Source of the DNA: a virus
Direction: 5' to 3' (one strand)
Virus record (IMG/VR): IMGVR_UViG_3300025889_000285
Span: 1 to 40,144 of that record
DNA: 40,144 bases
Shown here piece after piece: positions 5,356-29,475 of this stretch (position 1 is its first letter; the number at the start of each line of letters is the position of its first letter). The position numbers were made by a program, and so were the translations under genes. The notes below the pieces were generated by a model. It was not told where the DNA came from. It made no database searches and worked only from the letters and a program-made list of their open reading frames with translations.

Positions 5356-6246
5356 TCACTTGATTGGCCGCACTTTCCGGCCTGTCCGCAGATAATGTTT
5401 TTGGGTTACTGACCTTGATGAATGCCCAAGCTGCCGAGTGGCATCGCCGCCCTGGTCTTCCAATTCGCCAGCATGTGCGGCTCTCAAGTCTTTCAACTGG
5501 AACAAGTCATAAGGCTTGAGTTTCTGTCTAAGTCTCTGCCATGCGGAATCTATGCCTGATTCGCTTATCCCTTGGAAATACCCAGGCTGCAATCTTTTGA
5601 TGACCTTTCGCAGCGAAGGCGTCCATTCAATCCTGACTTTCTTGGCCGTCTTGCCTTCCACTAGATGAATTCCATCCTGGCGGATATTCATGTCTGTCAT
5701 GTTTAACGCATCCTCGCGCCTCAAGCCTGTCAAATAGATGAGCCACATCAAATGCCTCTCTCTTGAATTGGCCTGTCGCATGACCGACCACAATTCGCCT
5801 GGCGACACTTGCCTGTCCCTGGGTGTCTCTTTCACCCGGTACTGCAGGCCACGTAGCGGGTTGAATTCAACAAGCCCCCAGTGGACACACTTTGTCAAAA
5901 CATGCCTCAAAAGGGCGATCTCTCTATTAGCCGACACGTTCCCGAAACGGTCCAGGTATTCGATGGCATGCGGTGCTTTGATCCTATCTACCGGGAAATG
6001 CCCGAAGATCTTGTCCAGCTTTGTAAGTTGCCTTGCCTGGACCTTGGAAGTCTTTTCGGCCTTGGTGAATAAAACCTCTTTTCTGTAGCGCCTGATTGCT
6101 TTGGACAAGGTGTTTAGGCTGATGCCTAATAGTTCCTCAGCCTTGTTGACGGCTTCCTGCTCATCTGGCCCCAGATTGATCCAGACCCATCTGTTTTCCT
6201 TTTTTACCCTCAGTCGGTAGTTTTTACCATGTCTATGAATCTTCAC
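5356..6246 (-). CDS. int: Tyrosine recombinase (phage integrase)
   Basis: The 296-residue protein has an N-terminal arm-binding-like region, a core-binding domain (about 60-140) and a catalytic domain (about 145-296). Visible catalytic residues are R176 (TGLRRED), K199 or K202 (GKTAKK), R255 (KDLRAAHA), H275 (LGHSS) and Y285 (HYLR). The residue that is His in the usual HxxR motif is Lys here (K252). It recombines attP with the host tRNA-Lys gene. The gene starts two bases after a DUF4224 gene, as in many prophages, and its 3' end faces attP. Confidence 0.95.
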   Translation of the reverse strand: MKIHRHGKNYRLRVKKENRWVWINLGPDEQEAVNKAEELLGISLNTLSKAIRRYRKEVLFTKAEKTSKVQARQLTKLDKIFGHFPVDRIKAPHAIEYLDRFGNVSANREIALLRHVLTKCVHWGLVEFNPLRGLQYRVKETPRDRQVSPGELWSVMRQANSRERHLMWLIYLTGLRREDALNMTDMNIRQDGIHLVEGKTAKKVRIEWTPSLRKVIKRLQPGYFQGISESGIDSAWQRLRQKLKPYDLFQLKDLRAAHAGELEDQGGDATRQLGHSSRSVTQKHYLRTGRKVRPIK

Positions 6247-7904: not shown

Positions 7905-8213
7905 TTAAATTTCAAACATGTCAATTTGTTTCGATTTTATTGATCTTTTCAACATGAAGTAATATTCAGAATCTTGCCCAAAAAAACCAAGAGATTTCAT
8001 AGAATGATCATTTCTTAATAGTGCCATTGCTATTGATTTATAGGATGGTGCGCGTAATGACTTTGAAAGTAGCTCAGGTATCTCATCAGGTATCCCATCC
8101 GAATAACATCTCTGTTCCCATGTGCTTATATAACTCTGTATTTTTGAAGTGATGGTATTCCCATGTTTGAATAGCTTGCTCTGCTTCTTTATTTGCCAAT
8201 AATTGCTGCTCAT
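7905..8213 (-). CDS. Small partner of the PP-loop/ParB module, 102 aa
   Basis: Its core reads SKIQSYISTWEQRCYSDGIPDE, then APSYKSIAMALLRNDHSMKSLGF, a pattern I associate with small proteins next to IbrA/IbrB-type genes in prophages. The stretch SYKSIAMALLRNDHSMKSLGF is similar to the C-terminal part of the PP-loop protein encoded upstream (SWKRFAITILKNDHTCKYLGL), suggesting a shared binding module. The start overlaps the preceding gene by 128 bases, and a GGAG 11 bases ahead of ATG 8213 is the only candidate ribosome site. Biochemical role unknown. Confidence 0.72.
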   Translation of the reverse strand: MSSNYWQIKKQSKLFKHGNTITSKIQSYISTWEQRCYSDGIPDEIPELLSKSLRAPSYKSIAMALLRNDHSMKSLGFFGQDSEYYFMLKRSIKSKQIDMFEI

Positions 8214-8508
8214 CAGTTAAGTAACTCCAGGCTTTTCTAGTAATGTCTTCTGGGCAATTTAATGCTAAGGCGCAAGCTGCATGTCCAACCCATGCCTTTC
8301 TATTAATACTGTAATCAGTCAATGCGTTTTCACATGAATATATCCATTCATTAATAACGCGCTTCATATAACTACCATACAACTTATGATTACCAGTAAA
8401 CTCTATTGCTTTCTCCAGCATTGAATTTCGGTCTGATACAGTCCCCCACATATTGTGTTTGATTTCTTCCCATATCTGATATTGATGGTAAATACGTTTA
8501 AGCTGCAT
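8086..8508 (-). CDS. Third protein of the PP-loop/ParB module, about 140 aa
   Basis: Helical protein with a recognisable conserved middle: EKAIEFTGNHKLYGSYMKRVINEW, then NRKAWVGHAACALALNCPE, then a C-terminal segment with Trp and Gln. It accompanies ParB/PP-loop pairs in other temperate phages as far as I recall, but has no known activity. I prefer ATG 8508; ATG 8532 adds eight residues and neither has a strong ribosome site. It overlaps the ParB gene by 11 bases and the 102-aa gene by 128, so all are translationally linked. The region is clearly AT-richer than the late genes. Confidence 0.72.
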   Translation of the reverse strand: MQLKRIYHQYQIWEEIKHNMWGTVSDRNSMLEKAIEFTGNHKLYGSYMKRVINEWIYSCENALTDYSINRKAWVGHAACALALNCPEDITRKAWSYLTDEQQLLANKEAEQAIQTWEYHHFKNTELYKHMGTEMLFGWDT

Positions 8509-9409
8509 CTTCGTTGAATTCCATTTCAGCATCCCATGAATCTGAAAAGTCCTGATTCTGGAATAAAGAAGATAATCCGGTAATTTGCTTCATCCGTAAC
8601 AACTCATCTGGACTCATGCCTATATGCTTGCATATCCATCTGTCACCTTTCCCCATCTCAACAAGCTCAGAAACAATATTGCTCATTAGTTCAATATTGT
8701 GGCTACCCCTCGCCCTGTTGTGTCTGATAGTAGATGCCATTCTGTCTGACATCTCTTTATTGAGTACAACAACAGGCAGCATTCCTTTTTCCCTTTCTCT
8801 AATACGCTCAGAGTCGCGGAGAGTCTTGAATCTATGGAATCCATCAACTACAACATAGGTATCACTATCTGGGTTGTAAACAACTACTACAGGCTGGGTG
8901 TAACCGTCTTCCCAAATAGAGGTTTCAAGCAATTCCATTTCAGGAGGCGCAACACTGTTTGGGTTGTAGTCGTTGGCAGTGACCTTATCTATCGGCACTC
9001 GCCTTACATCATAGACAGGTGATTTATATTCAGATGGATATGACCCATCATCACCGTGTATCTCTTTGCCTTTTAACGGAGGGTTAAAAACACATAAAAG
9101 CGTAACCTCTTCAAAAGCCTGGAAGGTGTGTGGGTCATGCTGGTCTAGGATATAAGTTGTGTCTGGTTCAATAGTGAAAGACTCACCAGTTATTGTATTG
9201 ACAAGTTCACCCTTGCCTGCGATGCAGTAACAACTTTCTATATGATTTTTGTAATGCCAAAATTGCTTTTCACCTACAGGGATGGTTGTTTTGTGTAGGC
9301 CATATCCAACATTATCTTCTTCTATCAAAATCCTGTTACTTATAAAGCCATTATTCGGACAGAAAACAATTCTTTCATTTGCTAATTCATTTGTTTTTAT
9401 AACCTTCAT
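8498..9409 (-). CDS. Ectoine-synthase-like cupin fused to a ParB nuclease-type domain (IbrB-like)
   Basis: Residues 1-125 follow ectoine synthase (EctC) closely: HYKNHIESCYC, YILDQHDPH, and CVFNPPLKGKEIHGDDGSYP. The iron ligands known for EctC (Glu, Tyr, His) align to E58, Y86 and H94. Residues about 130-300 are a ParB/sulfiredoxin-fold domain (VPIDKVTANDYNPN, VVDGFHRFKTLR, RHNRARGSHN) with an HTH-like tail. ParB-like IbrB partners of PP-loop proteins are known; I do not know of an EctC fusion. It starts inside the stop of the PP-loop gene (ATGA). Ectoine synthesis is unlikely because no ectA or ectB genes are present. A sensor or a small-molecule enzyme coupled to DNA binding is more plausible. 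Confidence 0.88.
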   Translation of the reverse strand: MKVIKTNELANERIVFCPNNGFISNRILIEEDNVGYGLHKTTIPVGEKQFWHYKNHIESCYCIAGKGELVNTITGESFTIEPDTTYILDQHDPHTFQAFEEVTLLCVFNPPLKGKEIHGDDGSYPSEYKSPVYDVRRVPIDKVTANDYNPNSVAPPEMELLETSIWEDGYTQPVVVVYNPDSDTYVVVDGFHRFKTLRDSERIREREKGMLPVVVLNKEMSDRMASTIRHNRARGSHNIELMSNIVSELVEMGKGDRWICKHIGMSPDELLRMKQITGLSSLFQNQDFSDSWDAEMEFNEDAA

Positions 9410-10710
9410 GCTACGCTCCTATATTTTTCTTGTATTTCTTTTTGCCTGACAGCTTGTTCCCTGGTAGGAGCAAGCCCCAAATATTTACAAGTGTGGTCAT
9501 TCTTGAGAATTGTTATTGCAAATCGCTTCCATGAAGTCACCATGCTGTTATGGCACTTCAGCATATCCAGGTGATCTGGTGGTCTTTTTATAATTACCCG
9601 TTGCAGTGAGTTGCCACCATGAGGGGTGACACCATTTAACTTAAAGGGGATTCGATTGCTTTCTAAATCACTGATGATTTCTTCTGGCAATCCGCGCCCT
9701 ATCCTTCCCCAGTATTTGATTGACTGGATAAAACGCTGTCTAAAATTTTCACCAACTTCCTTTGGCAGGGTTTCTAACAAAAACTTAACAAATGATTTCC
9801 ATGTATGACCATTGGGGAGATTGAATGAGTGATAGCTCAACTGTTTTCCGTATGTCGCTATAAAATTAGCACCAGCAACCCTGGCGCATAATCTGGCCCA
9901 TACATCAGGATCAATGACGCGATAAAGAGATAGACTGCTTTTAGACTCACTCATAAATGGCGAAGCGACCCGCATTTTTCCTACTGGTACGCCAGCCCTA
10001 TAGAAAATGTCGTATAGCTTGTTGTATTCAAAATCAAAACGATCGTTAGCTATCCATACATCATCTGTTTTCCAATCATAAATAGGGTATACGTTATAAG
10101 TGTGCAAAGTATTCTTTTTCGTCCAGGGTTTTCCAGAAAACATCACTTTATCTTCATTCATTATTGCCCTGAATCGATTTAGGCTTTCTGATGCCCTGAT
10201 TCCTATAAGATTGGCGCAGCTTTTCCCTTGTGAGTACCATTCTGCGAAACCATCCCAAAAATCATCGTAGTGCATATTTTCAACAAAGAAATCGAATGGA
10301 TGATTGGCGATATTTACAATGTAGTCATTGTCAGGCATTGGCCTAACCCATTTGTCTTTGTCTTCCTCTCCCCAACACTGCCAATCAACAGCGTATGAGG
10401 AGATCGTACAAGGCAAAGTTATAGGCAAACAACACCAATAAATATCGAATAAATCCCTATTGCTCTGCAATATAGAGTGCATGAAGTTCAAGGATTGAAT
10501 GTAATTAGCTTCGTTGTCTAATATTTGAATGCCTATTTTTTTATCTATTTTGTTTTTACGCATATATTGGATGACAAGATTTATCATCAATCCTGAATCC
10601 TTACCTCCAGAAAATGAAAGATATATCCGTTCAAAATTATTGAAGATAAAATCTATGCGCTCCATTGCAGCGTCATAAACATTCTTATTTTTGTTATATA
10701 CTCTTTTCAT
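9406..10710 (-). CDS. PP-loop ATPase of the PAPS-reductase / DUF3440 family (IbrA-like)
   Basis: The N terminus carries the PP-loop SFSGGKDS (residues 32-39 from ATG 10710), which binds ATP for adenylation. The rest shows PAPS-reductase/DUF3440 features: LIGIRASESLNRFRAI, YPIYDWKTDDVW, and PFMSESKSSLSLYRVIDPD. The family includes IbrA of E. coli prophages and is distantly related to DndC, which places sulfur in DNA. The substrate is unknown. I start at ATG 10710, one base beyond the upstream stop; ATG 10731 would add seven residues. Its stop overlaps the cupin-ParB start. Local base composition is AT-rich, suggesting a separately acquired module. Confidence 0.9.
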   Translation of the reverse strand: MKRVYNKNKNVYDAAMERIDFIFNNFERIYLSFSGGKDSGLMINLVIQYMRKNKIDKKIGIQILDNEANYIQSLNFMHSILQSNRDLFDIYWCCLPITLPCTISSYAVDWQCWGEEDKDKWVRPMPDNDYIVNIANHPFDFFVENMHYDDFWDGFAEWYSQGKSCANLIGIRASESLNRFRAIMNEDKVMFSGKPWTKKNTLHTYNVYPIYDWKTDDVWIANDRFDFEYNKLYDIFYRAGVPVGKMRVASPFMSESKSSLSLYRVIDPDVWARLCARVAGANFIATYGKQLSYHSFNLPNGHTWKSFVKFLLETLPKEVGENFRQRFIQSIKYWGRIGRGLPEEIISDLESNRIPFKLNGVTPHGGNSLQRVIIKRPPDHLDMLKCHNSMVTSWKRFAITILKNDHTCKYLGLAPTREQAVRQKEIQEKYRSVA

Positions 10711-10711
10711 T

Positions 10712-11470
10712 CTAAAAAGGAATATCGTCATTTGGTTGATAATTCTTGGTCAACTGCCAGTATTTCAATAGGCAGAGAAATTTTTCATAATGACTGCCTT
10801 CATCGGCCCGTTCTTCCCAAACATGCCAGACAATTAAGCCAGGGTTGTTTCGGCTGACGAAAACATTTGCCATCCTGGCATTCGCCATTCCCAGTCCATG
10901 TGCGTATGCCGCAAGCTGCATAGCATGTTCGTCCCAAGCCATTTTCTTGCCCATGTCCTCGGGTCCGAAATCTTTGGTTTTGTAATCGATGACCCACCCA
11001 CCGGGATGGTGTAAATCACACATTCCGCCATAACCATTGTGCGAAAAACTTTTTTCAGCTATCCAGCCGTCTTCAAATCCAGTGACTTCAAGCGTCCTTT
11101 CTTTAACTAGCTCGGCAATCTCACGCCATGTCCCGGCGGGTTCATCCTTCCAGACGGCTTCTATATCGGCATGAATGGCCGATCCGGTTTCCATCGCCTG
11201 CTTGGTTTGCTCAGTAGAATCCTGCTTTGCGCGTTTTTTATAATCGTCCAGGCTTTCGCCTTCGACCTTTGGCAGAGTCAAGGCCGACAAAAGTGCCTGC
11301 TCAACTAACCAGTTGGTCAGGGCAGGCTTTGCCGCCATGTTCAAGATTTCTGTCACGGATGGGAAAAGGTTTTCTTTCCTGGCATCACGCAAAGTGGTTG
11401 CTCTTTCGTTGCCGTTTTTCCCAACAATAAAATGCCGAGGGTTGCCTTCTGAATCGTACCAGTGGCCCAT
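10712..11470 (-). CDS. PD-(D/E)XK exonuclease of the recombination operon
   Basis: A 252-residue RecB/Cas4-type nuclease. Motifs in order are GSAIHADIE (about 97-105), GGMCDLHHPGGWVIDYKTKD (acidic residue, then the D-x-K pair) and QLAAYAHG (QxxxY). It would resect double-stranded DNA 5'-3' and load the annealing protein encoded two genes upstream, as in lambda Red-like systems. The C terminus is QPNDDIPF, an SSB-like tip not usual for this nuclease class. Its start overlaps the stop of the 88-aa gene by one base. Confidence 0.9.
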   Translation of the reverse strand: MGHWYDSEGNPRHFIVGKNGNERATTLRDARKENLFPSVTEILNMAAKPALTNWLVEQALLSALTLPKVEGESLDDYKKRAKQDSTEQTKQAMETGSAIHADIEAVWKDEPAGTWREIAELVKERTLEVTGFEDGWIAEKSFSHNGYGGMCDLHHPGGWVIDYKTKDFGPEDMGKKMAWDEHAMQLAAYAHGLGMANARMANVFVSRNNPGLIVWHVWEERADEGSHYEKFLCLLKYWQLTKNYQPNDDIPF

Positions 11471-11736
11471 TAGTCCTCCTGTGTGATTGCAAGCAGATCA
11501 GAGATTTTGCGGTCGATTTCCATGACACGCGCTTGAGCGGCGGCATGGATTTCTTTTTTCAAATCTTTCAATGCTTGGATTTCGATATTGACAATTTCTT
11601 CGCGTGGCCTTTCAACAAAATCAACCTCTACATATTCAGTCATGCGAATAAAATCATCCTTGTTTTCGTAAAATTCCCGGCTCTCACCGATGGTGATGTA
11701 ATCATGTTTCACGCTTCTGTATTGGGCTATCTTCAC
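11470..11736 (-). CDS. Small helical protein of the recombination operon, 88 aa
   Basis: Acidic N-terminal half with aromatic residues (YITIGESREFYENKDDFIRM) followed by a long amphipathic helix (about 40-80) ending ISDLLAITQED. It lies between the ERF annealing protein and the exonuclease and overlaps both, so the three are expressed together. Unrecognised small genes at this position are common in phage recombination operons. No function can be read from sequence. A coiled-coil partner of one neighbour is possible. Confidence 0.75.
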   Translation of the reverse strand: MKIAQYRSVKHDYITIGESREFYENKDDFIRMTEYVEVDFVERPREEIVNIEIQALKDLKKEIHAAAQARVMEIDRKISDLLAITQED

Positions 11737-12329
11737 GCAGCTAACCTCTCTTTTGCTTGGTTTTTGTCATCTTCGTAAAGCGCATGTTGATCTTTGTTCA
11801 GCGACTTCCAGATCGCCGCGAGTTCCTCGATTGATTCCGCTGATTCGAATTTCTGTAGGATGCTTTTGACTTTGCGTGGCTTTTTAACTGGAGTAGGGTC
11901 TTCTGGCGAACCATAACGCGATTCGTCATCATCGCCAGATTCAAGGGCGAAAACCTTCAGCATGGCCATTTTTACGGCATAAGAAACAGCCTTGCCAGGT
12001 GCTTTATCGCCGTTATCGTCTGCATGTGATTCGATCTCTAAAACAAGCCTGTCCTCGGGCGCGTCTACATTGACGAAATCTACAGAATAGGTGGCTTCAT
12101 AACGTATCTTTTCGCCACCCTTTTGAGTAACACCTGGGATGCTCTCAGATGACTTTAATGATGGATAGATCACTATCCCATGTTTGACTAACAGTGGATG
12201 CAGCATCCCAGCTACAGCGTCATGTGAAACAGCAGAATAGGTATTATTGCCCCAGCCTACGGTTGAATCTTTCTTGACATAACTGGTTTCAGCCATGACG
12301 GCATTGATTCTTTGAAATATGTTTTTCAT
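11733..12329 (-). CDS. erf: ERF-family single-strand annealing protein
   Basis: 198 residues. The ERF domain covers about 1-140. It opens with a segment ending VGWGNNTYSAVSHD, continues through LLVKHGIVIYPS, and ends in the hallmark DNGDKAPGKAVSYAVKMAMLK. A Pro/Lys linker and a helical C-terminal domain (about 155-198) follow. ERF proteins form rings that anneal complementary single strands, giving the phage its own recombination and circularisation route after infection. It is paired with the exonuclease downstream and the start codon follows directly on the 61-aa gene. Confidence 0.93.
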   Translation of the reverse strand: MKNIFQRINAVMAETSYVKKDSTVGWGNNTYSAVSHDAVAGMLHPLLVKHGIVIYPSLKSSESIPGVTQKGGEKIRYEATYSVDFVNVDAPEDRLVLEIESHADDNGDKAPGKAVSYAVKMAMLKVFALESGDDDESRYGSPEDPTPVKKPRKVKSILQKFESAESIEELAAIWKSLNKDQHALYEDDKNQAKERLAA

Positions 12330-21687: not shown

Positions 21688-22545
21688 ATGAACGAGGCAA
21701 TTTTAGAGGAAACAGCTGAAGAACGTGATTTTTTTGAGACTGGAGGGCAACAAGATGAAGTGCAAGACACCCAAGAAGCCACAGCCGCCGAAGAAAGGCC
21801 GGTAGAAGCCAAAGAGGAAACCAAGGAAGAAAACACCATCCCGCATGCGCGATTCCATGCAGAAATGCAGGAACGACAGCGTTACCAGGCAGAGGCGGAA
21901 GCACTCAGGCGTCAGAATGAAGAACTGATGTCCTTGAAAGAACAGCTTAACGAATTACGCCAAGGCAAGGCTCAGGAAGAAGACAGCCAAAGTTTCGATA
22001 ATGACCCGCTGGGTTACATGAAGAACAAGATTGACGGCATGGAGCAGATGACAGCGCAACAACAAGCGCAATACCAGCAGGCCATGCAGCAACAGCAAGC
22101 GATTGCCAATCTGAATAACTGGGCTGGCACACAGGTTAATGAATTTGCCACAAAGCACGAAGACTATGGCGATGCGTTGAATTTTGTCATGGAAAAACGC
22201 GCCGAGCAGTTGAGGTTTTTCAATGAACAGATGGGCGTGAACACACCCATCGAGCAGATCCTGCAACAAGAGAGCTTCAATCTCATCGCCCAGGCCGCGC
22301 AAATGGGTAAAAACCCGGCGGAAATCGTTTACAACATGGCCAAGTCACAGGGGTATAAGAAGCCCGAGACTGAAGCCAAGTCCAAACTCGACACAATCAA
22401 CAAAGGGCAGGCGGCATCTCAGTCTTTGGCAGGCACTACCTCGAACCCTGATGTAAAACCGAATGTGTCAGACATTTCCGGCATGTCAGATGAAGAATTT
22501 GATGCTTACTGGGCCAGGTATGAAAAGGAAGCTAGGGCGCATTGA
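21688..22545 (+). CDS. Capsid scaffolding protein
   Basis: ATG 21688 has GAGG upstream; the frame from TTG 21661 overlaps the portal and is less likely. The product is very acidic and Gln-rich: Glu/Thr/Ala-rich residues 1-45, a coiled coil with EALRRQNEELMSLKEQLNEL, a run of Gln around 110-140, and a C-terminal acidic end (SDISGMSDEEFDAYWARYEK). This composition and its place between portal and coat genes are typical of scaffolds, which shape the prohead and then leave it. Confidence 0.88.
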   Translation: MNEAILEETAEERDFFETGGQQDEVQDTQEATAAEERPVEAKEETKEENTIPHARFHAEMQERQRYQAEAEALRRQNEELMSLKEQLNELRQGKAQEEDSQSFDNDPLGYMKNKIDGMEQMTAQQQAQYQQAMQQQQAIANLNNWAGTQVNEFATKHEDYGDALNFVMEKRAEQLRFFNEQMGVNTPIEQILQQESFNLIAQAAQMGKNPAEIVYNMAKSQGYKKPETEAKSKLDTINKGQAASQSLAGTTSNPDVKPNVSDISGMSDEEFDAYWARYEKEARAH

Positions 22546-23089
22546 AGACTTCCCTGTCAAAGACTATGCAGAACGTGTCAAGTATTTGAGGGATGCCTGG
22601 ACAGAACGGCAAGGCTTTTTCACTTTGGGCGCAGCCGCCTATCTGGACAGGGACTATCGGGAACTGGCGCATCAGGTCAACCCGGTCATCTGGCACTACT
22701 TTCCAGACTTGTTACAGGACATCAAGACATACTTTGACGGGGAATATGACTTAACCATCGGGTTGCCGGGCTTTCACATCTTTGACAAACAAAGCAATGG
22801 CCTGGTGGGTAGTATTCATGTAGACACGCCCTGGGCGAAAATCTGGGGCCGGGCCGATGATGTGTTTTCCTTCACTTTACCTTTAGAACTGCCGTCCTTT
22901 GGCGGTGGCTTAAACTGGTGGGATGAAGGCATGCACTTCATGGACTACGAGATTGGCAAGCTATACATCCATGATGGCGCAACCTATCATCAGATCGCGT
23001 CTTTAGGTGATATGGCTGAAGACGAATATAGAATTACACTACAGGGCCACGGTGCAACCGTGGGTAATCGCAAATACCTGTACTTCTAG
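22520..23089 (+). CDS. 2-oxoglutarate/Fe(II)-dependent oxygenase-like protein, 189 aa
   Basis: The double-stranded beta-helix signature is visible: GSIHVDTPW (H100, D102), YIHDGATYHQIAS (H157) and EYRITLQGHG (R171), i.e. HxD...H...R with the Arg that holds 2-oxoglutarate. The family includes prolyl hydroxylases and nucleobase oxygenases. It sits between scaffold and coat genes, so it is made with the capsid and may hydroxylate a virion or host protein. ATG 22520 overlaps the scaffold gene by 26 bases and its ribosome site is weak, so the exact start is uncertain. Confidence 0.82.
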   Translation: MKRKLGRIEDFPVKDYAERVKYLRDAWTERQGFFTLGAAAYLDRDYRELAHQVNPVIWHYFPDLLQDIKTYFDGEYDLTIGLPGFHIFDKQSNGLVGSIHVDTPWAKIWGRADDVFSFTLPLELPSFGGGLNWWDEGMHFMDYEIGKLYIHDGATYHQIASLGDMAEDEYRITLQGHGATVGNRKYLYF

Positions 23090-24875: not shown

Positions 24876-26291
24876 ATGATTGTTGGAGAAGAACTTAAAA
24901 GACTGAACGCTTTGCAGCAGACAGCATCCACGGCGGACGAACTCAAGTATCTCATTGATGAATATTCCGCATTGTTGAACACCGTTCCTGAAGACCCTGT
25001 GATTACATTTCTTCTAGCGACGGCAAACATGCAGTATGGCTACAACGGTGTGGCGATTGCGCTATTTAAGCGTGTCTTGTATTACCACCCGGATTTTCAT
25101 GAATGCTGGAATAATTTGGGCAGCAGTTGGAAGGCCGAGCATGAGAACGACAAGGCGCTGGAGTGTTTCTTAAAAGCCGTACAGTATGCGGACGAAAAAG
25201 ATCACAAAGTCCTGTCTGACTACTTCAACAATTTAACCACGTTATATATCAATACAGGCGATCCCAAACCGGGGCTGCCTTATGCCGAAAAAGCGGTTGA
25301 GCTAAACCCTGATTCACCCAAAGCTCACTGGAACATGGGCCTGGTCTTATTGGAAATGGAACAATGGGACCGAGGCTTTCAAGAGATGGACGCCGGTTTG
25401 TTGAGCGGTGATCGCCCGTTACGATTCTTTGCCCAAGACCCTGAAAAGATTCCCTGGTGGGAAGGCCAGGAGGACGGCAAGATTATCGTCTACGGTGAGC
25501 AGGGCATGGGCGATGAGATTCTTTTCGCGTCATGTATGAATGACCTCATTGATGAAGTCGGCAAAGACAGGGTGATATATGAATGTCACCCAAGAATGGA
25601 GAATTTATTTAAGAGGTCTTTCGATGTCGAGGTTGTCCCGACAAGAAAGAAGATGGAAATCACCTGGCCCATGGATCGGGATGACATCGGGTACAAAATA
25701 GCCATCGGGTCATTGATGCACCGTTACCGCATGAACGGCGATTTTCCGAAGACAGCTTATTTAACGCCTGACAGCGAGATGGTGGAAGACTATCAGAACA
25801 TGCTGCAGGAATGGGGCAAGGGTCCGTTTATAGGCATTGGATACGCAGGTGGTAACAAGCGCACATCCTCGCATGAGAGAAGTTATAAATTAAAAGAACT
25901 TCTACCCATACTGGAACAGGACGCAACTTTTATATCCTTGCAGTACACCAAGGGCGCAAAAGAAAAGTGGGATCGGTTCTATGACGACACCGGAATTCGT
26001 GTCCATCACTGGGACGACGTGGTGCGTGGCTTTGACTATGACGAAAGCGTGGCCCTGATGGCGGCACTGGACCTGGTAATCGTGCCGAACACCACAGCCG
26101 TGCATGTCTGCGGCGCAATTGGCCAGGACTGCTGGACATTCACACCCAAAGCGAAAGCCTGGCGGTATTCAGACCGGGATGAGATGGCCTTTTATGGGCG
26201 CTGGGTACGTCAGTATCACGAGAGTGATGACCAGATCGAGCGCATGGCTGACGACTTGGCGGAATTTCTCGACACCCGGGCGGCAGCATGA
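24876..26291 (+). CDS. TPR-domain glycosyltransferase-like protein (GT-B)
   Basis: 471 residues. About four tetratricopeptide-type repeats occupy residues 1-185 (FHECWNNLGSSWKAEHENDK, SPKAHWNMGLVLLEMEQWDR). The second half is a GT-B-like domain (IIVYGEQGMGDEILFASCMN, PFIGIGYAGGNKRTSSHERS, LDLVIVPNTTAVHVCGAIGQ) similar to heptosyltransferase/OGT-type enzymes. A TPR-linked transferase suggests that a protein is the acceptor. It opens a six-gene block of sugar and methyl transferases inside the late operon. The next gene overlaps its stop by four bases. Confidence 0.82.
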   Translation: MIVGEELKRLNALQQTASTADELKYLIDEYSALLNTVPEDPVITFLLATANMQYGYNGVAIALFKRVLYYHPDFHECWNNLGSSWKAEHENDKALECFLKAVQYADEKDHKVLSDYFNNLTTLYINTGDPKPGLPYAEKAVELNPDSPKAHWNMGLVLLEMEQWDRGFQEMDAGLLSGDRPLRFFAQDPEKIPWWEGQEDGKIIVYGEQGMGDEILFASCMNDLIDEVGKDRVIYECHPRMENLFKRSFDVEVVPTRKKMEITWPMDRDDIGYKIAIGSLMHRYRMNGDFPKTAYLTPDSEMVEDYQNMLQEWGKGPFIGIGYAGGNKRTSSHERSYKLKELLPILEQDATFISLQYTKGAKEKWDRFYDDTGIRVHHWDDVVRGFDYDESVALMAALDLVIVPNTTAVHVCGAIGQDCWTFTPKAKAWRYSDRDEMAFYGRWVRQYHESDDQIERMADDLAEFLDTRAAA

Positions 26292-26920
26292 ATGTAGCCA
26301 TCATAGGACACGGACCCTCCATGCTGGGCGGATTCCTGGGTAAAGAGATCGACGAGCATGACAAGGTGATCCGTCTGAAACGCTGTCAGGATACCCTGAA
26401 ATATCCTGGCCACTATGGCCGAAAGGTCTCGGCGGTCTGCGGGTCTTTGACGATTGGCGCACACCTTAAAAACATCCCGGCAGATGGATATTGGGTTTTT
26501 GCGGATTCGCGCCATAAGGATCAGGACATCAATCTTGAGGCCTACAAAGAACACTTCTCACCCAAGCCGGTCATCATTGATCGGAAATTGTGTGACGAGT
26601 GGAACGAACGCTATCGGGACTTGCGGACAGAGCGTGAATTCCCTGACACGGTGGAACTGAAGAAGTCATCCACCGACAAGCTGGGCGAGGATCACCTATC
26701 CGCAGGCTTGCATGCTGTTTTGTATGCCGCGAAACACTTAAAGCCTGAAAGGATTGACTTGTTCGGATTTGATAACGTGTTCACCAGAGATTACGGCTGG
26801 TCGATCACACGCGGACCTGAGTGGGACAAGTACCCACCACACAGGTGGGATATTGAGAAAGACTTGTTGAACGACATTGAGCAGGAGTTTGATACCGAGA
26901 TCCACTTTGTTTTTCCATGA
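26288..26920 (+). CDS. GT29/sialyltransferase-like glycosyltransferase
   Basis: The N terminus NVAIIGHGPSMLGGFLGKEI, with HDKVIRLKRCQ next, follows the first sialyl motif (VxxVGNGPSxxG...DxVIRxN). Later LSAGLHAVLYAAKHLKPERI and DLFGFDN match the second. Proteins of this type are common in phages and bacterial surface loci and move a sugar (possibly a nonulosonic acid) to an acceptor. The actual donor is unknown. The 210-residue length is short but complete for phage versions. Confidence 0.78.
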   Translation: MNVAIIGHGPSMLGGFLGKEIDEHDKVIRLKRCQDTLKYPGHYGRKVSAVCGSLTIGAHLKNIPADGYWVFADSRHKDQDINLEAYKEHFSPKPVIIDRKLCDEWNERYRDLRTEREFPDTVELKKSSTDKLGEDHLSAGLHAVLYAAKHLKPERIDLFGFDNVFTRDYGWSITRGPEWDKYPPHRWDIEKDLLNDIEQEFDTEIHFVFP

Positions 26921-26931
26921 TGAGGCACATT

Positions 26932-27639
26932 ATGAATAAATTTTTAACGTCCTTTTCACAGGACGGCTATGAGCTGTACGGGCGGCGATTCCTGAAAAGT
27001 TTCGTCAAGTATTGGGATTTTCCGATTGTTGTCTACTATGAACAAGAACCGGACTTTGAACACCCAAACGTCACCTATAAGAATCTGTTTGACGTTCCAG
27101 GGTGTAAGGAATTCCTAACCGCAACCGGGTCAACCTTTCCCATCTTCAGAGGGACGGTGGACGATCAACGGAACTATCGGTTTGACGTGCATACCTTTGC
27201 ACGAAAGATGTTTGCACAGGTAGACGCCGCGACTGAACACCAGGGCAACCTGTGGTGGATAGACGCAGACACTGAAATAAAGAAAGCACTTCCAGAAGCC
27301 TGGCTGGATGACGGGCTGAAAGAAGTGTTTATGGCATATATGGGTCGGCCTGGCTGGCATAGCTGTGCCTCACTTGTTGGCTGGGACACGACCCACCCTT
27401 ATGCAGAAGCCTTTTTTAACGCTTATTTGAATTTACATCTGACCGGACAAATCTTCGCACTGCCTGAATGGCATGATTCATTCGTTCTCGATGTCTTGCG
27501 GACTGAAAGCCAGTTACCGTCACGCAATCTGGCAGCAGACATTGAAATGAGCGATGGCCCGGTGAATGTTTTTGACCTGGTGATGGACGGCAAAGCGGTG
27601 CATTTCAAAGGTAACAAAAAATACCGGATGGCCTCATGA
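26932..27639 (+). CDS. GT-A type glycosyltransferase, 235 aa
   Basis: ATG 26932 follows GAGG; the frame from 26917 adds five residues. The DxD metal/nucleotide-sugar motif is seen in GNLWWIDADTEIKKALP (about 105-121), with FPIVVYYEQEPDFE before and a mixed alpha/beta end. Family not certain among GT-A enzymes. It lies in the middle of the glycosylation block, overlapping the FkbM gene by four bases. Confidence 0.75.
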   Translation: MNKFLTSFSQDGYELYGRRFLKSFVKYWDFPIVVYYEQEPDFEHPNVTYKNLFDVPGCKEFLTATGSTFPIFRGTVDDQRNYRFDVHTFARKMFAQVDAATEHQGNLWWIDADTEIKKALPEAWLDDGLKEVFMAYMGRPGWHSCASLVGWDTTHPYAEAFFNAYLNLHLTGQIFALPEWHDSFVLDVLRTESQLPSRNLAADIEMSDGPVNVFDLVMDGKAVHFKGNKKYRMAS

Positions 27640-28247
27640 TAGGGCCGTATAAGCACATTGTATTGCCGAAGTCAGATACGCATTTCAAACCTTTTGTTAA
27701 AAAGGGCAAGTACCAGCTGGCTTTGTTTGGCAAAGGCGTTGAAAAAACGAAACGCTTCGGCACAGCGGTAGACGTGGGCGCTCATGTGGGTTTCTGGTCA
27801 TGTGCCATGGCGGATAAATTTGACAAGGTAATCGCGTTCGAGCCGGTTAAGGATAACTACGACTGCCTGGTGAAGAACGTGCCAGACAACGTGAAAACCT
27901 ACAATTATGCTTTGGGTGAGAAGTCGAAGCGGATTGGTTTGTACAACCCGGCTCCTGACAATTCCGGCGCCTGGGAACACAAGGATGGCGATGAGTATTC
28001 GGTGCATTCACTGGATTCTTTGGAATTCGTAGAGAAGATTGATCTGATTAAGATTGACGTGCAGGGCATGGAAATGGCTGTACTAGAAGGCGCAAAGAAC
28101 AAAATCAAGCAGAGTCATCCTGTGATTATCACAGAGATTCCGAAAGGCGAAGCGCAGCGTTCTGATGAAGTGCAATTTATTTTATTTGAACTGGGCTACG
28201 ACAACGTGCAGATTATTGGCAACAAAACCGCAATCGGGTGGTGGTGA
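27636..28247 (+). CDS. FkbM-family methyltransferase
   Basis: 203 residues. AdoMet-binding motif I AVDVGAHVGFWSCAMADKFD, then VIAFEPVKDNYDCLVKNV, and LDSLEFVEKIDLIKIDVQGM followed by EMAVLEGAK are FkbM hallmarks. These enzymes O-methylate sugars or small molecules, here probably the glycan built by the neighbouring transferases. Start and stop overlap both neighbours. Confidence 0.9.
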   Translation: MIGPYKHIVLPKSDTHFKPFVKKGKYQLALFGKGVEKTKRFGTAVDVGAHVGFWSCAMADKFDKVIAFEPVKDNYDCLVKNVPDNVKTYNYALGEKSKRIGLYNPAPDNSGAWEHKDGDEYSVHSLDSLEFVEKIDLIKIDVQGMEMAVLEGAKNKIKQSHPVIITEIPKGEAQRSDEVQFILFELGYDNVQIIGNKTAIGWW

Positions 28248-28768
28248 TGATTTCTGCAGAATACAGAGCCTTAAATACTCAGTTGCACATGGAACGCAAG
28301 GACTACGGACGCTCAGGGCGAAAGTGGGCAGTCACCGTGGCGGATTTGGTCAAAGAGTCTGGCGCACAGTCTGTGCTGGACTACGGCTGTGGTAAGTCTA
28401 CATTTAAGAACGCTTTCAGCCAACTTTCTGACATACCGGTATCAGAGTATGACCCTTGCATTCCAGGCAAGGAAAAATTGCCCGATCCCGTGGATGTGGT
28501 GGTGTGTACTGATGTGATGGAACATATTGAGCCGGAATTCTTGGATGAGGTTTTATCGCATATTCATTCATTGGGCAAATTGTTTGTCATGACCGTGGCA
28601 ACAAGGGAAGCAAAGCGCAAACTACCAGACGGCAGAAACACACATTTGATTGTTCGGGGTGTTGACTGGTGGCGTGAAAAACTGTCCGAACATTTCACGA
28701 TACTCGGAATTCAGATGGACCCGACTGAAAACGGTGAATTTTTAACCATCATGGCGAGGCACACATGA
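28247..28768 (+). CDS. Class I SAM-dependent methyltransferase, 173 aa
   Basis: ATG 28247 shares its first base with the preceding stop. Motif I is SVLDYGCGKSTFKNAF and the post-motifs are VDVVVCTDVMEHIEPEFLDE. It is a compact Rossmann methyltransferase in the group found in phage sugar-modification islands. Substrate unknown; a glycan or a small metabolite is likely from context rather than DNA, because no target-recognition region or N6A/5mC motif is present. Confidence 0.82.
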   Translation: MISAEYRALNTQLHMERKDYGRSGRKWAVTVADLVKESGAQSVLDYGCGKSTFKNAFSQLSDIPVSEYDPCIPGKEKLPDPVDVVVCTDVMEHIEPEFLDEVLSHIHSLGKLFVMTVATREAKRKLPDGRNTHLIVRGVDWWREKLSEHFTILGIQMDPTENGEFLTIMARHT

Positions 28769-29475
28769 AAAAACTAGAAATATATATCGGCTACGATCCG
28801 GTTGAATCGGTGGCATGGCACACATTGACGCATTCGATTCTAAGTCGAAGCTCGATCCCGGTGTCCTTTACGCCGGTTAATATTCGCAACCTGAAGAAAA
28901 TCTTCAATCGTAAACGCGACCCAAAACAAAGCAACGAGTTTTCTTTTTCACGCTTTTTAGTGCCTTACCTGAACAACTATCAAGGTTTCGCGCTGTTCAT
29001 GGACTGCGACATGATGCTGAGATGTGACATTGCGGAGATTCTTGAACAGGCAGAACTGGACCCAGGGAAGGCCGTTTATGTGGTGCAGCATTCCTATAAA
29101 CCCAGCGATAACATCAAGTATCTGGATACCGTTCAATACCCGTATCCGCGTAAAAACTGGTCGTCCGTGGTCTTGTGGGATTGCTCGCACCCTTCTAATC
29201 AAGCCGTCACGCCGGAATGGGTGGAGACTGCATCAGGGCTTGATTTACATAGATTCACCTGGCTGAAGGACGAGGAAATCGGCGAACTTGATGTCAGATG
29301 GAACTGGCTGGTGGGTGAATACGCCTCTCCACCGGAGGACGTGAAAAATGTTCACTGGACAATCGGCGGGCCGTATTTCCGTGAATACGCACACGTCGAC
29401 TTTGCAGACGAATGGTTTACTGAAAAATCCCTGATGAACCATTGCATGCAGAGAAGCGAGGTTAAAAGTGCGTAG
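28765..29475 (+). CDS. GT8-like glycosyltransferase
   Basis: 236 residues. IYIGYDPVESVAWHTLTHSI, FSRFLVPYLNNYQGFALFMD with CDMMLRCDI (the DxD), and KNWSSVVLWDCSH are features of GT8-like retaining transferases in phages and bacterial surface gene clusters. It is the last of the six modification genes and overlaps the zinc-finger gene that follows by eight bases. Confidence 0.8.
   Translation: MKKLEIYIGYDPVESVAWHTLTHSILSRSSIPVSFTPVNIRNLKKIFNRKRDPKQSNEFSFSRFLVPYLNNYQGFALFMDCDMMLRCDIAEILEQAELDPGKAVYVVQHSYKPSDNIKYLDTVQYPYPRKNWSSVVLWDCSHPSNQAVTPEWVETASGLDLHRFTWLKDEEIGELDVRWNWLVGEYASPPEDVKNVHWTIGGPYFREYAHVDFADEWFTEKSLMNHCMQRSEVKSA

Follow-up and report, generated by a model that had tools for sequence, protein, structure and literature searches.

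The window analysed here is a virus contig of 40,144 bases, and the locus under study is a module of four genes on its minus strand, called A, B, C and D (Table 1). All four open reading frames are intact, with one stop each. Genes A and B overlap in an ATGA (4 bp, 9406-9409), B and C overlap by 11 bp (8498-8508, counted with the ATG at 8508), and the start codon of D lies inside C. The four overlapping genes of the original prediction (ATGA, 11 bp, 128 bp) are therefore exactly where it had placed them. Its outer boundary at 10710 also agrees with the start of gene A as supported by homologues, which begin at a Met with its codon start at 10710, though the frame stays open to 10731; for gene C, agreement with homologues led us to prefer the ATG at 8508 over that at 8532. 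The module is AT-richer than the rest of the window, as had been claimed (GC 0.383 vs 0.498). The proposed check on composition was borne out for GC and for GC3 (0.33-0.39 in the module genes, 0.43-0.61 in the other genes compared) but not for codon choice: a simple measure of synonymous-codon distance to the late genes did not set the module apart, so codon usage alone gives no support for a "foreign" module.

On its upstream side the module is bordered by a PD-(D/E)XK exonuclease-like gene (10712-11470), with a gene for an Erf annealing protein (11733-12329) further upstream. Its downstream flank contains a tyrosine integrase gene (5356-6246) as well as several small genes. The phage is of the temperate type, its portal and capsid resemble those of P22, and the module lies in its early region. 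In the late region (24876-29475) we noted a TPR protein, an FkbM-type methyltransferase, a second methyltransferase and ORFs recognised by eye as glycosyltransferase-like. An ORF overlapping the scaffold gene (22463-23089) has, by eye only, an HxD...H-like pattern and could be a 2-oxoglutarate oxygenase. The Pfam scan of the window covered 47 ORFs, with 25 listed of 30 matched families.

Table 1. Features of the module in the window and of tailoring genes in related loci (prefix L)
Feature	Positions	Strand	Evidence
Gene A, IbrA-type PP-loop ATPase (PAPS_reduct-like domain + DUF3440)	9406..10710	-	PF11922 E=5.5e-56, PF01507 E=5.9e-9
Gene B, N-terminal half: ectoine synthase (EctC) cupin domain, aa 1-126	9032..9409	-	PF06339, PRK13290, PDB 5onm
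Gene B, C-terminal half: IbrB-type ParB_N/sulfiredoxin-fold domain + ParB-like HTH region	8498..9028	-	TIGR00180, phrog_2159
Gene C, 140-aa all-helical predicted protein	8086..8508	-	homologues in module, confident model
Gene D, 102-aa stand-alone relative of DUF3440/IbrA C-terminal region	7905..8213	-	PF11922 positions 110-174, E=3.7e-5
Two-frame C/D overlap, 128 bp	8086..8213	-	overlap 113-143 nt in 92/99 distinct loci
EctD homologues	L085:3664-4509, L205:7998-8846, L206:7992-8873, L098:2242-3111		TIGR02408 E=6.7e-51 to 3.4e-111, PDB EctD matches
MycE-like O-methyltransferase	L205:8861-9391 (separate gene); insert in L085:4515-6011, between EctC and ParB		L205 gene matches MycE 3ssm E=3e-27

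Gene A belongs to the IbrA/DUF3440 family. Its DUF3440 domain, behind the PP-loop domain, scores 189.6 bits against a cut-off of 25, the motifs SFSGGKDS and GIRxxES are conserved (SGGKDS in nearly all lineages), and SGGKDS, DxE and GIRxxES are retained with few exceptions across 37 diverse IbrA proteins. Searching the PDB by sequence gave nothing useful for A. With the predicted structure (mean pLDDT 78), the Foldseek matches over the PP-loop domain had PAPS reductases at the top and included FAD synthase, TilS, NcsA and TtuA.

Gene B had been described as a cupin-ParB protein. The fusion of a cupin to a ParB is correct, but the cupin label is too general, as the domain is that of an ectoine synthase and retains the catalytic residues (PF06339, E=1.6e-40; NCBIfam PRK13290, 138.5 bits vs a cut-off of 128; PDB EctC 5onm, E=3.6e-26). 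With residue roles taken from the structures of P. lautus EctC (PMC6344544), the equivalents of the iron ligands Glu57, Tyr84 and His92 are identical in 28/28 lineages, and the same is true of Ser23, Arg25, Thr40, Tyr52, Cys104 and Phe106. Two further positions depart from the conservation expected of EctC. Trp21, which is reported to be retained, at times with a shift of two positions, by ect-cluster and orphan EctC alike (PMC6344544), is replaced by Phe in all 20 aligned lineages, and the position is missing in the other eight. Asn38, a contact to the substrate carboxylate (PMC6344544), is Thr in 25 and His in 3 of the 28 lineages. Because the ligands and most contacts are invariant while these two contacts are altered, the module EctC looks like a working cyclase with a changed substrate, and the replacement of the carboxylate contact would fit a substrate in which the carboxylate is possibly derivatised.

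The C-terminal half of B matches TIGR00180 (aa 136-281, reaching the HTH region) and phrog_2159, and is the most conserved part of the protein, with 75-87% identity across 28 lineages. The motifs DGFHR and HNRARG replace the canonical ParB motifs; the GERR-type P motif of ParABS ParB is absent, with DGFHR present in 28/28 lineages, and no ParA-type family was found in the window among the 25 listed of 30 matched Pfam families. An assignment of this half as a SerK/SbnI-type serine kinase gave marginal matches (E=0.04-0.1) and was not adopted.

The two small partners that had been proposed are indeed present in the conserved module, and to this we can add that the fourth protein, D, is a relative of the C-terminal region of DUF3440. 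Gene C has no Pfam, PHROGs or NCBIfam match and shares 49-67% identity with its homologues in the module. Its structure is confidently predicted as helical (mean pLDDT 91), with no PDB match to the fold (Foldseek best E=2.6; VIA-align 2 no Z above 3.7); helical proteins give weak chance matches, so C may still have a known fold. Gene D starts with ATG in 94/99 distinct loci, and in one lineage (L015:4074-5333) it carries a fused stretch of some 340 extra aa that matches nothing in Pfam. When a D profile was compared with the C-termini of IbrA proteins, three loci with a Par-C-A arrangement (L094, L127 and L128) gave E-values of 4e-16 to 6e-11, better than the other IbrA proteins tested. In these loci IbrA comes directly after C, in the place that D occupies here. 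Based on these two observations, we infer that D is what survives of the tail of a second IbrA.

The linkage of these genes extends well beyond the window. By tblastn, four phage records matched B across 80% of its length or more; they come from Mycobacterium phages Gaia (two records) and Nebkiss (69% identity) and Pseudoalteromonas phage XCL1123 (65%). Nearly all other phage matches cover the ParB half only. C and D come after B in the Gaia, Nebkiss and XCL1123 records, and the module of Gaia corresponds to gp103-107. In IMG/VR, we found 186 relatives of B (with its own peptide patterns) and 203 of C, while a looser B profile gave more than 590 relatives, ParB-only relatives included. Among the fetched loci, 128 have the order A-Ect=Par-C-D, with EctC fused to ParB, and 14 a split A-Ect-Par-C-D. 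The orders Ect=Par-C-D-A and Par-C-D-A-Ect also occur, as does C-D-A-Ect-Par in further contigs, and the set stays together throughout. Some contigs were fetched repeatedly, and distinct loci were counted once per distinct ParB DNA. On this count, all five domains are present in 94 of the 134 distinct loci with A, and 30 are plain A-Par pairs; 42 of the A sequences cluster together at 85% identity, and the independent lineages number about 28-30. The original prediction that the four genes would be linked elsewhere is thus confirmed, as is its view of an IbrA/DUF3440 PP-loop protein, a ParB protein and two small partners as one conserved module. Judged by these neighbourhoods, phages of unrelated hosts share a linked unit made up of A, EctC, ParB, C and, in most cases, D, in which EctC and ParB are fused, split or reshuffled. 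Of the 28 matches in the genome collection, just 2 had EctC, both on MAG contigs, one of them with phage-like neighbours, and the EctC-ParB pairing therefore looks essentially viral.

Genes of the helicase, exonuclease, annealing-protein and SSB type (named by sequence reading and only in part by profile) recur next to the module. In three lineages, GIY-YIG-type endonuclease genes at differing module junctions (L003:8890-9264, L015:2532-2849, L089:4728-5045) look like mobile inserts. In another, a second IbrA copy starts after D (L056:3924-4256), which suggests a tandem duplication of the module, and in a single lineage a 1-Cys peroxiredoxin gene (L088:3868-4614) takes the usual place of EctC between A and a ParB-only gene.

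An EctD homologue joins the module in four lineages, and a MycE-like O-methyltransferase is also present in two of these. In L085/L204, L205 and L206 the EctD-like gene is flanked by A and EctC; in L098 it follows ParB and exceeds the NCBIfam equivalog cut-off (371 vs 336.5 bits). The 2-oxoglutarate dioxygenase of L085/L204, located between A and B, has a near-complete EctD signature (WSWHSDFETWHSQDGMP), and gene B of this lineage carries an insert between EctC and ParB. Scanning IMG/VR with the L085/L204 EctD returned three contigs, with the gene between A and EctC in 3/3, a module-derived query that reaches close relatives only and leaves room for phage EctD elsewhere. An order of ring closure, hydroxylation and O-methylation makes chemical sense. 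Taken with the intact catalytic residues of EctC, the EctD and O-methyltransferase of some relatives suggest that the chemistry of the module is of the ectoine type rather than the sulfur type. At a haloarchaeal DUF3440-ParB pair (Halomontanus rarus plasmid, L126:3511-6704), a GNAT acetyltransferase and a second PAPS-reductase-like gene follow, a possible tailoring variant.

To our knowledge, IbrA and IbrB have no established biochemistry, although they are common in phages, plasmids and E. coli. The module shares its PP-loop/DUF3440 and ParB core with the IbrA-IbrB pairs of phages and E. coli (YbdN-YbdM in K-12), in which the two genes are adjacent and usually overlap. These pairs differ in having no EctC, nor C and D in the 30 A-Par loci examined. 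With ect operons, the module has in common the EctC fold, the iron ligands and most substrate residues, and the EctD signature in four related loci; the differences are the lack of EctA/EctB, the altered equivalents of Trp21 and Asn38, the fusion or adjacency of EctC to ParB, and the presence of IbrA. Dnd/Ssp phosphorothioation likewise combines a PAPS-reductase-class PP-loop protein with a ParB-superfamily protein (DndB), but the module has EctC instead, no DndA/DndD/DndE was seen in the window or among recurrent neighbours, and the conserved cysteine dyad is absent. A further likeness is to CmoA/CmoX/CmoY carboxymethylcytosine hypermodification, where the phage ligase is an ATP-dependent, AMP-forming enzyme of the asparagine-synthetase type and many of the contigs also have ParBc genes (PMC12783734). 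That system uses a different PP-loop family and has no EctC, and no CmoA/CmoX-like handle enzyme was seen in the window.

The same protein in the same module already has a GenBank name, "ectoine synthase/ParB multidomain protein", in Gaia (gp104) and in XCL1123. We found nothing beyond such gene names, in keeping with the claim that the module had not been described in this form; a search of open-access papers gave no description of the module, its EctD/O-methyltransferase variants or the changed EctC site, and for ectoine synthase together with ParB in phages only irrelevant genome papers. The main text of a survey of the ParB fold does not mention ectoine, cupin, PAPS or IbrB (PMC12704722). 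What is already known is the fusion, by name (Gaia, XCL1123), and IbrAB as a pair; there is a substantial chance that the chemistry of the module itself is new.

The explanation we favour, with a probability somewhat short of even, is that the module represents a version of the phage IbrA-IbrB pair with ectoine chemistry, a tailoring pathway for making an ectoine-like cyclic amidine, with DNA as the most likely site. Adenylation of carbonyl or carboxyl groups with ATP is carried out by TilS, asparagine-synthetase-like and other PP-loop enzymes. In the same way, A would use ATP to adenylate a carbonyl or carboxyl group and then join this group to an amine, and EctC would close the cyclic amidine (tetrahydropyrimidine) ring. 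Where present, EctD would hydroxylate the ring and the methyltransferase cap the hydroxyl. The ParB-HTH half would direct this chemistry to DNA, probably with the help of C and D, and the outcome would most likely be phage DNA with a hypermodified base that protects it from host restriction. Three points lead us to favour DNA as the target: the ParB-HTH partner, the setting among replication/recombination genes, and a published parallel in which an asparagine-synthetase-like ligase hypermodifies phage DNA and the contigs also hold ParBc genes of unknown role (PMC12783734). Least certain are the target, which might instead be RNA, a protein or some free metabolite, and where the ring precursor comes from. 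DNA binding by the ParB half is not proven by homology. Two results count against the proposal: no base-modifying handle enzyme (C5-methyltransferase, hydroxymethylase) was found among the 25 listed of 30 Pfam families in the 47 window ORFs, and no EctA or EctB was found among the same listed families of the window nor among genes inside the module in relatives. The variable tailoring would also fit a secreted or signalling metabolite. The more specific idea, that IbrA and EctC-ParB build an ectoine-like cyclic amidine (in some cases hydroxylated and O-methylated) on DNA or attach it there, as an undescribed class of phage DNA hypermodification, is one that we regard as possible but on balance doubtful.

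Several other explanations have to be weighed against this. ParB-derived VirB works as an NTP-switched DNA-binding regulator, and the ParB-HTH half could do the same, with EctC as a ligand-sensing or activating domain and IbrA making or sensing the ligand, so that phage or host genes would be switched on. We consider this unlikely, though it deserves to be taken seriously. It rests on the name of IbrA/IbrB, which the annotations of several phages give as co-activators that act on the expression of prophage genes; from work on ECOR-9, such co-activation is reportedly the only role known for the EctC-less IbrAB pair, which fits regulation as well as modification. The strong conservation of ParB and the HTH region (75-87%) is in line with it, as is the description of ParB-fold orphans as diverse NTP-binding proteins fused to many domains (PMC12704722). 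However, a pure sensor should need neither iron ligands and catalytic residues that are invariant in 28/28 lineages nor an added hydroxylase and methyltransferase. The same ectoine-type chemistry might instead act on tRNA or protein, for example to shield translation of the phage against nucleases of its host; tRNA is the substrate of many PP-loop enzymes, and TilS, NcsA and TtuA are among the structural matches of A. We find this distinctly improbable, since the ParB-HTH partner and the replication/recombination neighbourhood point to DNA and searches with Pfam, PHROGs and NCBIfam showed no tRNA-binding domain in any of the four proteins.

That the phage supplies its host with ectoine or hydroxyectoine, as an auxiliary metabolic gene for salt stress, is how a published survey reads viral ectoine genes (PMC13288924), and EctC is present, with EctD in a few lineages, one over the equivalog cut-off. 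We nevertheless give this little credence, as the loci seen contain neither EctA nor EctB, none of the lineages retains Trp21, Asn38 is replaced, and a ParB fusion with the constant company of IbrA would be unexpected for a free solute. Neither regulation nor osmolyte supply accounts for the whole gene set. The original prediction had drawn a parallel to DndC and phosphorothioation, and A as a PAPS reductase or DndC-like enzyme seems to us the most remote of these explanations. It is of the same PP-loop superfamily, with PAPS reductases as its top structural matches, but its DndC profile match is weak and confined to aa 152-227. Moreover, the CysH motif EC[GSA]xH is absent from 112/112 IbrA sequences and the IbrA alignment has no invariant Cys column (the best is 32/37, with Ala there in E. 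coli YbdN), which makes both PAPS reduction and phosphorothioation by A unlikely. No DndA-, DndD- or DndE-like partner or cysteine desulfurase was seen nearby either, and the parallel is not supported.

Phage IbrA genes are routinely annotated "PAPS reductase". In metagenome surveys, "ectoine" and "cysH" genes of viruses may be parts of this module, and not of osmoprotection or sulfur assimilation. The linked ectoine enzymes give a concrete chemical hint for the IbrA/IbrB pair, testable in the cultured phage Gaia (M. smegmatis), and a hypermodification class of this kind, if true, would also explain the role of the widespread IbrAB/YbdNM pair. The same core pair is present as ybdM-ybdN in E. 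coli K-12 (L130:6748-8570), a genetically tractable strain.
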